A stretch of DNA of 64,000 nucleotides, taken from the NCBI GenBank assembly GCA_001839685.1, contig MLAK01000635.1, forward strand, positions 1 through 64,000, written 5' to 3'. The stretch is from Tritrichomonas foetus (Eukaryota; Parabasalia; Tritrichomonadida; Tritrichomonadidae). The notes beneath the pieces were generated by a model. It had not been told where the DNA came from. It saw nothing but the letters and a program-made list of their open reading frames with translations, and did not search any database. A program made the translations under genes and the position numbers. Positions 33,329 through 43,726 of this stretch are shown here, piece by piece. How positions within the stretch are numbered: the first letter of the stretch is position 1; every line of letters begins with the position of its first letter.

Positions 33329-34336
33329 CTATTTTGAATTTTTCACCATGATCCATCCTATTTCTAGTTTCAAATTAAATGTTTTAGGATCTTGTGTTAA
33401 ACCAAAGAATCCACCGTAAATAATACAGTCATATTCTATTTTTCCGACATCAATAAACGTCAGTGTCATAGGAACTTTTAGAACTTCTGGTGGTGGTTTT
33501 TTATCTTGATAAATGCAGCTTAATGAGTTTCTATAACCATTTTTATCATAAGGATAAAATGCACAAATCCATCCGTCAATACGTGCTGGGTCATAAAATC
33601 CTTTTTCATCTTTATATCTAACCATATGAAGCCAAAAGTCTCGATTAATAATTCCTTTCTTCGTATTGATGACTTCTTGAATAATTGGATAAAGTTTTGA
33701 AACCCACCATTCAAGATCATATGCTTCAATAACTTTTAACTTTTCCTGAATTTGTTCCCAATCTTTAATGGTGCCTTCAATTGTAACTGAAGGAATCCCG
33801 CAACCACACACCATCAAATTATAAGCAAAATATTTTTTCACAGTTGCCATAATACTAATCAAACCTGCTGTATAAGATGTTGGCGTAGTAGTAGTGAAAT
33901 TTGGAATTAATGTTTTTGTTAATTCTTCTCCTGTATATTCAGAAATTTTCGAAACAAAACCACTAAAAATGCCTTCCCATTTATGAGGATCTGAAATATC
34001 AAAACTATAGGTATCAACAGACAATTTTTCTTTACCTTGAAAGTTCACAAATTTCGATCTTAATTTTTCTGAATTATACTCCACGTGATATGAAAATCCT
34101 TGAACAATTAAAAGCCATAGAATATCTGGACTAATTGTGACTGGTCGATGTTCAATGTAAGCACGAACAAAACCGTCTAAAACTGGATGTTCCCTAAATA
34201 CCACAAGATCATTCTTAAAAGATGAACAACAAGCATTTGAATATCGGCTCTGAATAGACTCGGGGCTCCTAAAGTATAAAAGATTCTGGGGTGGAGTTAA
34301 TTCTTCGAGTTCTAACGTAATCTTTTCGATTTCCAT
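33329..34336 (-). CDS. DUF4419 domain-containing protein
   Basis: The 335-residue product starts at the ATG MEIEKITLEL; the longer frame begins at TTG. Nearly the whole length fits the DUF4419 family, which is widespread in fungi and protists. Seen here: HRPVTISPDILWLLIVQGFS (about 65-84), a SYTAGLISIMATVKKYF block, and the very typical GCGIPSVTIEGTIKDWEQI near residue 190, followed by a Trp/Tyr-rich region with WICAFYPYD. No biochemical function is established for the family. There is no signal peptide or membrane segment, so the protein is probably cytosolic. Its upstream neighbour encodes a metallophosphoesterase in the same orientation about 360 bases away, with no sign of co-transcription. 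Confidence 0.88.
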   Translation of the reverse strand: MEIEKITLELEELTPPQNLLYFRSPESIQSRYSNACCSSFKNDLVVFREHPVLDGFVRAYIEHRPVTISPDILWLLIVQGFSYHVEYNSEKLRSKFVNFQGKEKLSVDTYSFDISDPHKWEGIFSGFVSKISEYTGEELTKTLIPNFTTTTPTSYTAGLISIMATVKKYFAYNLMVCGCGIPSVTIEGTIKDWEQIQEKLKVIEAYDLEWWVSKLYPIIQEVINTKKGIINRDFWLHMVRYKDEKGFYDPARIDGWICAFYPYDKNGYRNSLSCIYQDKKPPPEVLKVPMTLTFIDVGKIEYDCIIYGGFFGLTQDPKTFNLKLEIGWIMVKNSK

Positions 34337-41113: not shown

Positions 41114-43726
41114 ATGCTTCAAGTGTCCTTATCTTGCTTTCAAGAAGCGCAAATGAAAGATGATCAAGATGAACGCTTCATTCATGCAAAAAGGATGCAG
41201 ACATCGATATTTTCCCGCTTCACTGCCAAACGCGGAGCTGGGCGAATCGAAAGATATTTCGTGAAATTAAGAAACCAGCAAATTAACTTCATGATTATTC
41301 TCACATCATTTGTTTTGAATGTGATTTTGATTGTTTTATACAATTATTTGCATGTTTTATTATTCCAAAATTTCATAACCGAAACAGTGAATGACATGAT
41401 GGAATCGACACGTGCACATAATTATTATAGCACTGTGAATATTTTTTTTGAAGCATTTTATTTTTCTTCAGTTTTTTCAGATTTTTTTTCTTATCCATCA
41501 ATTTTTTACCCAGTTGATGAAAAAAATGCAGAAATGATTACCAAATTGTCATATTTTGAACACAAAATATTTCAGTCTGTGAACATTCATAGCTGCTTTG
41601 TTCATGACTTTGGATTTATTTCAGGGTCTGTTGTCTCTGTTGAGACACAAAATTATAACATAAATGATGTGCTTTTATGGTATGCTAATGTTTCTTCTGG
41701 TACTCAAGGTTATCTTTGTTCATGGGCAGCTGATGAAAATGGATTGAATGAATCTTTTCCAATAAAAGGTGGAATTTGTTTAACAGAACCTTTTACAACA
41801 CGTACAAGAATGTGGTTTCAATACGCTGATAGCTTAAACCGATCAACATGGACTCCAATTTATTATGGAATATTTTATAATTCAATTACAATTCCAGTCA
41901 TATCGGCATCAGTTCCAGTATATAGTAAAAACGGTGTTTTTCAAGCAATTGCATCGTCTGATATGAATTTAGAAAATATTCGTCAAATATTCACTTCGCT
42001 GTTACCTGGAGGGAATTCAAGGTATGCTTTAATTTCTGAAAATGGAGTAATTCTGACAGCAACTGGAAGTGAATCACCAATTGATTTCTATAAAGGTGAC
42101 ATTGTGACTAAAACCTTGTGGGAACTGAGAGATCCTGTTTGGAAAGCTATTACAGATGAAATGGATTCGAAAAACATGGTGAATAAAACCGTGAAAATAG
42201 AAATAGATGATCAAATACTTGATTATTCAATCACAATTCATACAATTATTCCTGCAAAGCATCATGAGTGGCAATTTATTTCTGCTGCTTGCATTTCTGA
42301 AATTTATCCAGTTGAAAAATTCAATTATGAAGGTTCTTATATATCTTCAATGATTACTTTAGTTGCAGGTTGGTTTCTTTTTTTCGTATTTAGTTTTGTT
42401 TTTGAATATTTGATTGGAATTGAGCAAAATCGTCTTCTTTCGTCGAAATATGGAAAGCCATCAAAGCATTTAAGAATAATTGGAATTGAATTAGGTCTAT
42501 CTTCATTAAAACGATTAATTCGATCACATGCTGATAATCCTGATATTTTAACTAGAATAAGAAATGTAATTCTCGATCTCCAACTTGAACATGATAATAT
42601 TTTTTTTTCTAGAAATAAATTTTATAGTGGAATTTATAATTCAAAAGTTCGTTCAAAATTCGAACAACTTTATGGAGCCAACGATGAAATGAAAGACACT
42701 TTAGGTTCATTAAGTTCATTAAATGATAATCCTATTCTATATCCAAAGAAAATAGCACCTCATCCAAGTAATGAATCAATATCTTCTATCAAATCATCTT
42801 CGATGAAATCTGTGTCAATTAAATCGGTTGATGCTAAATCAAATTCTAGCAAAACAGCATCGTTTAAATCATTTGGTATTGCATTGTCTTCAGTTTTACA
42901 TCAATCATTCATCCGAAGGAAAGGGACATTAACAAATAATAGAGAACAATCAATTGAATATATAAAATCGCTTTTACAAAAATATAACTCAGCACAGCCG
43001 TTGTTTGATTTTGATGATTTTGACTCGATTATTGAAGAACTTTTGAATTCAATCGATGATTCTTTAATTTCACTGTGTGCAGATTCACTTGAATTTGTCA
43101 TTATTATGCTTCAATGGAAATTTCAAGACATGATTATTCATTCTGATTACGCTTTTGCATTATTGATTTCTTGTTTTATTTGGCAATTGGCAATGCATAA
43201 GCGAAATAAGGAAAATAAGCCATTAATTCGAAGATATTTTGTTGAACAGAAAAAAATCATGGAAACAACTAATATGGTTTTGACAGCCCTATATCAAGCA
43301 TGTTTGAATGATGATGAAAATCTTGTAAATGGAAATGGAAATGAACGATGGGAAAAATTTGTTGAAATTATTCTCAAAATTATTTATGTTTCTTCAATTG
43401 ATAAACATTTAGAAGTAATTTTGAAAGTTAAAATCTTAAATAAAACAATGAAAATAAATAAACAAACTCTACAAAGAAATAGCAAAGAAACCATTGATAT
43501 AATGAGATTGTTATATATTGCTTCCAATTTATCGTTTTATTTCCATGGTCAGGTCTCCATTCGAAATGTCAGGTACATCATTAATACTGATTTTTCTTCA
43601 AACGAGGACAAAATTACATCTTTTTTGTTTTGTATGAAAAATGAATATTTGAAGCACCTTTCTACTTGTCTTAACACAATTTGTGAGAAGAAGTTCATGA
43701 AGAAGTTTCATGAAGAACTTTCCTGA
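41114..43726 (+). CDS. Cache-type membrane receptor with degenerate PDE-like domain
   Basis: The 870-residue product (ATG at 41114; the frame has a TTG just before) has two membrane segments, about 60-85 and 410-434, flanking an extracellular domain of about 320 residues. That domain shows dCache features (TRTRMWFQYA...TWTPIYYGIFYNS, then ISASVPVYSKNGVFQAIASSDM). After a Ser/Lys-rich stretch (about 555-605), residues about 640-870 follow the helix pattern of class I cyclic nucleotide phosphodiesterases: FALLISCFIWQLAMHKRNKEN against ALIxxxxHDxDHxGxxN, KIIYVSSIDKHLEVI against IVLATDMSKHxxLL, and MRLLYIASNLS against MxxKCADxSN. The metal ligands are lost (HD to WQ, the CAD Asp to Asn), so a non-catalytic sensor is inferred. 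Confidence 0.75.
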   Translation: MLQVSLSCFQEAQMKDDQDERFIHAKRMQTSIFSRFTAKRGAGRIERYFVKLRNQQINFMIILTSFVLNVILIVLYNYLHVLLFQNFITETVNDMMESTRAHNYYSTVNIFFEAFYFSSVFSDFFSYPSIFYPVDEKNAEMITKLSYFEHKIFQSVNIHSCFVHDFGFISGSVVSVETQNYNINDVLLWYANVSSGTQGYLCSWAADENGLNESFPIKGGICLTEPFTTRTRMWFQYADSLNRSTWTPIYYGIFYNSITIPVISASVPVYSKNGVFQAIASSDMNLENIRQIFTSLLPGGNSRYALISENGVILTATGSESPIDFYKGDIVTKTLWELRDPVWKAITDEMDSKNMVNKTVKIEIDDQILDYSITIHTIIPAKHHEWQFISAACISEIYPVEKFNYEGSYISSMITLVAGWFLFFVFSFVFEYLIGIEQNRLLSSKYGKPSKHLRIIGIELGLSSLKRLIRSHADNPDILTRIRNVILDLQLEHDNIFFSRNKFYSGIYNSKVRSKFEQLYGANDEMKDTLGSLSSLNDNPILYPKKIAPHPSNESISSIKSSSMKSVSIKSVDAKSNSSKTASFKSFGIALSSVLHQSFIRRKGTLTNNREQSIEYIKSLLQKYNSAQPLFDFDDFDSIIEELLNSIDDSLISLCADSLEFVIIMLQWKFQDMIIHSDYAFALLISCFIWQLAMHKRNKENKPLIRRYFVEQKKIMETTNMVLTALYQACLNDDENLVNGNGNERWEKFVEIILKIIYVSSIDKHLEVILKVKILNKTMKINKQTLQRNSKETIDIMRLLYIASNLSFYFHGQVSIRNVRYIINTDFSSNEDKITSFLFCMKNEYLKHLSTCLNTICEKKFMKKFHEELS

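Follow-up and report, generated by a model that had tools for sequence, protein, structure and literature searches.

We identify in the parabasalid Tritrichomonas foetus an 870-residue membrane protein that is very probably a catalytically dead dCache-TM-pseudophosphodiesterase receptor, with a chemoreceptor-like ectodomain held between two membrane segments and a cytosolic C-terminus predicted to fold as a class I phosphodiesterase (PDE). The gene lies in a 64,000-nucleotide stretch of contig MLAK01000635.1, hereafter the window. The pairing of a dCache receptor and a PDE-fold output domain that appears to have no metal site recurs in 12 of 12 full-length members of its family. We propose, at slightly better than even confidence, that as a whole these features are best explained by a plasma-membrane receptor that relays a ligand signal through its pseudo-PDE domain, the latter acting as a docking or allosteric module. 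We are not aware of any external input identified for the cyclase and PDE network of this organism.

Gene model and domain layout

The gene is a single intact open reading frame (ORF). P0002, the database prediction for the same gene, begins at residue 28 of the 870-residue translation, and an alignment of relatives places residues 1-8 opposite the starts of P0004 and P0005. The features of the gene, in window coordinates, are as follows.

41114..43726, + strand: whole gene, dCache-TM-pseudo-PDE receptor, 870 aa; unbroken ORF, its first residues aligned with where P0004 and P0005 begin
41171..41281, + strand: N-terminal segment preceding TM1, residues 20-56, ...FxAKRGAGRIERYFVKLR; 45.1% mean pairwise identity across 12 members
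41282..41347, + strand: TM1, about residues 57-78; hydropathy maximum of 2.59 (residue 57), modelled as part of a long helix, 40-126
41492..42328, + strand: dCache ectodomain, about residues 127-405, four N-glycosylation sequons; PF02743 match, PctB/PctA-type structures by sequence and fold
41792..41818, + strand: amino-acid-receptor-like motif, F227 ... R232-x-W234-F235, with Y250 and D283 downstream; position table of 12 members, motif definition from PMC9901441
42341..42409, + strand: TM2, about residues 410-432; hydropathy maximum of 2.19 (residue 412), modelled as part of a helix, 405-442
42452..42682, + strand: helical juxtamembrane segment, residues 447-523, ...RSHADN...; 32.6% mean pairwise identity
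42683..42883, + strand: linker of variable sequence, rich in Ser, residues 524-590; disorder predicted (pLDDT <50), 19.2% mean pairwise identity
42890..43723, + strand: putative pseudo-phosphodiesterase domain, residues 593-870
43061..43084, + strand: HNxxHAxD equivalent by profile alignment and position table, residues 650-657; His to S650, His to L654, Asp kept as D657 (12/12)
43181..43186, + strand: metal-binding His-Asp dyad replaced by W690-Q691 by profile alignment; aromatic plus Gln/His in 12/12
43523..43534, + strand: ADxSN equivalent by profile alignments and position table; metal Asp to S804, Asn to S807 (invariant Ser)

The receptor anatomy is solid, and computation establishes its domain order: two strong hydropathy maxima, from about residues 57 and 412, flank the ectodomain, as a preliminary description of this DNA had claimed. 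Residues 20-56, which in the inferred topology would face the cytosol, are the best-conserved segment of the family, and their genome matches at E<=10 are restricted to seven family loci. Residues 447-523 match five of the six other family loci and, elsewhere, only two loci (E 0.14 and 0.57). Both of these conserved stretches adjoin membrane helices and carry no Pfam match of any kind. Structure models were built on shallow alignments of 8-10 sequences, and the full-length model reached a pTM of 0.43.

Pfam scans of eight neighbouring ORFs gave no indication of a functional link. Elsewhere in the window, positions 33329-34336 on the - strand encode a protein that strongly matches the uncharacterised domain DUF4419 (E 2.9e-65).

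A family of at least seven loci

Protein searches with several queries place the receptor family at seven or more genomic loci (at least C245, C549, C618, C928, C3, C135 and C159); the different queries recovered these seven and no further ones, and all seven are uninterrupted ORFs of 817-908 aa. The six other genomic paralogues are 23-41% identical to the window protein; P0004 (TRFO_32439) is the sequence at C549 and P0012 (TRFO_34176) that at C618. Five additional full-length database proteins (P0003 and P0005-P0008) have the same whole layout. Because this layout is common to six further paralogues and five database proteins, it is not a product of chance.

Two further family members, P0009 (539 aa, on four contigs) and P0010 (549 aa, on three), stop before the PDE-like domain; they may be truncated predictions or contigs, or receptors without an output domain. 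Another match from the homologue searches, P0011, is a Cache-containing kinase that is otherwise unrelated. No proteins named T. vaginalis appeared in the homologue searches, whose limited sensitivity and mostly nameless matches mean that this is not evidence of absence, and searches with alignments A1 and A2 contributed little.

The ectodomain resembles bacterial chemoreceptors

Several comparisons bear out the dCache-like ectodomain proposed in the preliminary description. PF02743 (dCache_1) matches residues 259-317 over profile positions 125-183 of 240 with E 1.2e-5, though at 25.4 bits against a curated cut-off of 45, and full-length Pfam scans find it at E<=1 in half of the family (6/12). 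A family profile of 12 sequences, compared with solved structures, matches PctB (E 3.5e-6) along with other chemoreceptor domains. With the full-length model as Foldseek query, the best 50 matches listed are chemoreceptor or histidine-kinase sensor structures at probability 1.00; for the ectodomain, these 50 have E values of 5e-8 to 3.5e-6 and TM by target of up to 0.71 (PctA). The dCache assignment is real, with a tandem Cache fold predicted for the ectodomain.

The ectodomain also carries residues that resemble part of a ligand-binding signature. Amino-acid-binding dCache domains are described by the motif Y..RxWY and Y...D (PMC9901441), and in the window protein it can be read as F227, R232, W234, F235, Y250 and D283. 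Across the 12 members the Arg is kept in ten, the Trp in all and a Tyr or Phe after the Trp in all; the Asp position holds Asp in three and Glu in two, and so is acidic in five of 12. Amino acids or related compounds are plausible ligands of the window protein and of the members at C928 and C135, which also keep the Asp, and are doubtful ones for the rest of the family.

PctA, PctB, PctC and Tlp3, bacterial dCache amino-acid chemoreceptors, share with the T. foetus receptor the ectodomain fold, part of the ligand motif and two flanking membrane segments. The output of such bacterial chemoreceptors is a methyl-accepting coiled coil, whereas here it would be a pseudo-PDE, in a eukaryote, and the motif Asp/Glu is present in only 5/12 members.

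A class I PDE fold is predicted for the C-terminal domain

The preliminary description had likened the C-terminal region to class I PDEs, and structure predictions do give a PDE fold. At the level of predicted fold, we regard the class I PDE catalytic-domain architecture of residues 593-870 as real. The Foldseek E value for this domain is only 1e-3, and one of five domain models had a pLDDT of 56. Profile scans of residues 593-870 returned no convincing match to another family, so neither outcome that the preliminary description named as refuting its reading occurred. The Pfam matches listed for the window protein at E<=10 include none to PF00211, the cyclase domain, and a viral structure library contained no meaningful match.

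Sequence scores for the fold are weak. PF00233 is absent at E<=1 from full-length scans of all 12 members and, in isolated-domain scans, matches one of seven (E 0.021, 15 bits against a cut-off of 24.8); a profile of seven C-terminal domains matches no PDB chain at E<=10. A family HMM run against sampled T. foetus ORFs reached best E values of 0.05 and 0.06, its top three matches lying in or near the PDE domain. Profile alignment to all 23 soluble PDE rows sampled from the genome, and to the 12 rows that remain without the 11 described next, outscored all 60 decoys. Against 11 hand-picked soluble PDEs that keep the His-Asp (HD) dyad, the local profile score was not significant, being reached by 6/60 decoys, and the global alignment spans only 30 unrelated columns. 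Probabilities from hhalign against PDE profiles are low (local 19.6-31.7%, global 19% and 7%). The PDE profiles omit L026_+3668, an unrelated ORF, and include from L003-L008 only the + strand L003, L005 and L007.

Loss of the catalytic site across the family

In PDEs the His of HNxxH, the His-Asp dyad and the Asp of ADxSN are metal ligands, which hold the phosphate, while a further His serves as general acid and an invariant Gln contacts the nucleotide base. The equivalences given here were read from profile alignments rather than from superposed structures. In this alignment S650 takes the place of the general-acid His and L654 that of the first metal His. Global profile alignment reproduces two substitutions named in the preliminary description: the dyad aligns with W690-Q691, and CADxSN with IASNLS, its Asp falling on S804 and its Asn on S807. 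Family-wide, the dyad position holds an aromatic residue followed by Gln (4/12) or His (8/12), and the metal Asp of ADxSN is Ser in ten members, Met in one and Gly in one. A third proposed equivalence, METTN as the ENHH-type site, falls in an alignment gap and is not conserved in the family; we reject it as unproven.

None of the five catalytic and metal residues is retained in any of the 12 full-length members, as aligned. The preliminary description had suggested looking for paralogues with an intact HD dyad; the seven loci contain none, nor did these loci or the database proteins include any member whose PDE site is intact. Five positions, by comparison, are invariant in 12/12: N625, D657 (the Asp of HAxD), R697, S807 and C840. 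Because metal-site loss is family-wide and these positions do not vary, the loss looks old and the domain looks to be under selection rather than decaying. By its defining residues, as aligned, the receptor's domain lies outside the active class I PDEs; with neither the general acid nor any metal ligand left, hydrolysis is not expected, and the domain is probably unable to cleave cAMP or cGMP.

The base-binding Gln is less certainly placed. Its position is Leu in the window protein and Gln in one of 12 members, with alignment confidence digits there of only 1-2, and the Gly of the same motif aligns with Cys in 12/12.

Cyclases and soluble PDEs in the same genome

The assembly scanned (63.7 Mb, 1064 contigs) contains at least 73 PF00233 matches, all above the PF00233 cut-off, and at least 150 cyclase matches. 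T. vaginalis is reported to encode about 123 transmembrane adenylyl cyclases and 41 cytosolic PDEs (PMC2914791). Genome scans with PF02743 and PF22673 returned two loci each, confined to the receptor family; since they miss most of the seven family loci, such scans are insensitive. The many Cache-linked cyclases that the preliminary description ascribed to trichomonads did not emerge: both PF02743 loci belong to the receptor family, and two T. foetus cyclases examined with Pfam (150 were scored) have PAS and cyclase domains with no Cache match, which, given the insensitive scan, is not proof. L052 and L053 (G000:C820 and C662) are transmembrane cyclases of about 1560 aa in which membrane segments enclose a region large enough for an ectodomain, at about residues 317-659 in the first and 306-658 in the second. 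This region has no Pfam match above cut-off, with one weak TPR_TmcB match (E 0.021) in L052, and it is possibly an undetected sensor fold.

Four soluble PDEs scanned with Pfam, one over its first 500 residues only, have GAF domains and no Cache match above cut-off. In the soluble PDE sample, 8/23 keep all five catalytic and metal residues and 10/23 lack an intact His-Asp dyad; the sample, for which 20 regions were fetched from the 73 matches, was biased to low scores, so these counts are not an estimate of how frequent degeneracy is. The soluble PDE paralogues noted as degenerate, L030-L039, lie on G000 contigs C159, C240, C723, C908, C3, C116, C583, C226, C337 and C366.

Proposed mechanism and alternatives

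We propose that a small molecule outside the cell, most likely an amino acid or a related metabolite, would bind the dCache ectodomain between TM1 and TM2. TM2 would then move, and this movement would pass through the helical juxtamembrane segment and the flexible linker to the C-terminal PDE-fold domain. The role of that domain would most likely be docking or allosteric: it would bind another protein, the candidates being soluble PDEs and other components of the cAMP pathway. In this scheme the ligand class, topology, direction of signalling and partner are what we infer. The scheme suggests that an enzyme shape stripped of its catalytic residues now serves signal relay. We put the chances that the signal passes through a protein partner, not a nucleotide, at about even. 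A bolder version, in which at least seven amino-acid-sensing receptors share a purpose-evolved pseudo-PDE output and ligand switches the capture or release of active cAMP-pathway enzymes, we offer only tentatively.

The domain might instead still bind a cyclic or other nucleotide without cutting it, and thereby integrate the outside ligand with the level of cAMP. We consider this rather unlikely. The PDE fold is predicted to be kept, D657 is invariant where the Asp of HAxD would be, and the genome's cyclase and PDE complement amounts to a large cAMP apparatus around it. The base-binding Gln is aligned in a weak stretch, which leaves its loss less secure; but its position is Gln in only one member, the Gly of its motif is Cys in all, and the metal ligands that would hold the phosphate are gone. 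With the metal site absent and the base Gln probably absent, cutting of a cyclic nucleotide is not expected and binding is less likely. The preliminary description had envisaged output through a PDE fold that binds a nucleotide or a partner without hydrolysis: the loss of the metal site agrees with the absence of hydrolysis, and the nucleotide branch is weakened by a base Gln aligned in 1/12, at low alignment confidence.

Alternatively, the PDE-like domain could be a structural cap or dimerisation module only, signalling being left to the N-terminal AKRGAGRIERYF motif and the SHADN segment, or the protein could be a non-signalling ligand-binding surface protein. The N-terminal motif is better conserved than the PDE-like domain (45.1% against 25.8% mean pairwise identity), and P0009 and P0010 end ahead of that domain. 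Conservation of the PDE-like domain is, however, near that of the ectodomain (25.8% versus 27.8%, 12 members), the domain is present in 12/12 full-length members, and the two short proteins may be gene-prediction or contig truncations; we judge this alternative improbable. That the domain has some other all-helical fold, its PDE match being a modelling artefact of shallow alignments (8-10 sequences), is very improbable; in its favour count the low sequence scores, the absence of any PDB chain from sequence searches and the lack of a significant profile match to HD-keeping PDEs alone.

Relation to known systems and significance

The pseudo-PDE docking model can be set against several known architectures. 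Bacterial Cache-linked c-di-GMP phosphodiesterases (EAL or HD-GYP) also pair a Cache sensor with a second-messenger phosphodiesterase output; the enzyme family and the messenger are different. The soluble PDEs of T. foetus share the genome and the fold family with the receptor, and some of those sampled likewise lack the HD dyad; they differ in carrying GAF domains, with no Cache above cut-off in the four examined, and in that all 73 score above the PF00233 cut-off. Trichomonas TMACs are described as a large family of cAMP-pathway membrane proteins with extracellular domains (PMC2914791); unlike the receptor they end in a cyclase domain, and the two T. foetus examples combine PAS and cyclase without Cache.

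On its inner side the receptor resembles the choanoflagellate RhoPDEs, described as a membrane sensor, a linker and a C-terminal PDE domain (PMC7644710), an order that the T. foetus receptor shares. Two of these, CfRhoPDE3 and CpRhoPDE1, are reported to be without the predicted Mg2+ site and are termed non-functional (PMC8774190), and they are the only precedents for a receptor-linked dead PDE that we found in the open-access literature. The RhoPDE sensor is a retinal protein with eight TM helices, whereas the T. foetus sensor is a two-TM dCache and its site appears lost in 12/12 members. The preliminary description knew of no described Cache-TM-pseudoPDE receptor, and our search of the open-access literature likewise found no description of such a family.

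Animal dCache domains are reported only in alpha2delta proteins and Cachd1 (PMC9901441), so a dCache receptor in a protist, with output to the cytosol, is of interest. On the bolder version of our reading, a eukaryote would link a nutrient sensor of bacterial type to cyclic-nucleotide signalling by way of a component that neither makes nor breaks the nucleotide. If a whole family of receptors has a PDE output that was already dead in its ancestor, the concept of the pseudoenzyme would come to include PDEs linked to receptors, and a compact receptor family with a recognisable ligand-binding domain would offer a testable entry into the cAMP network of T. foetus.
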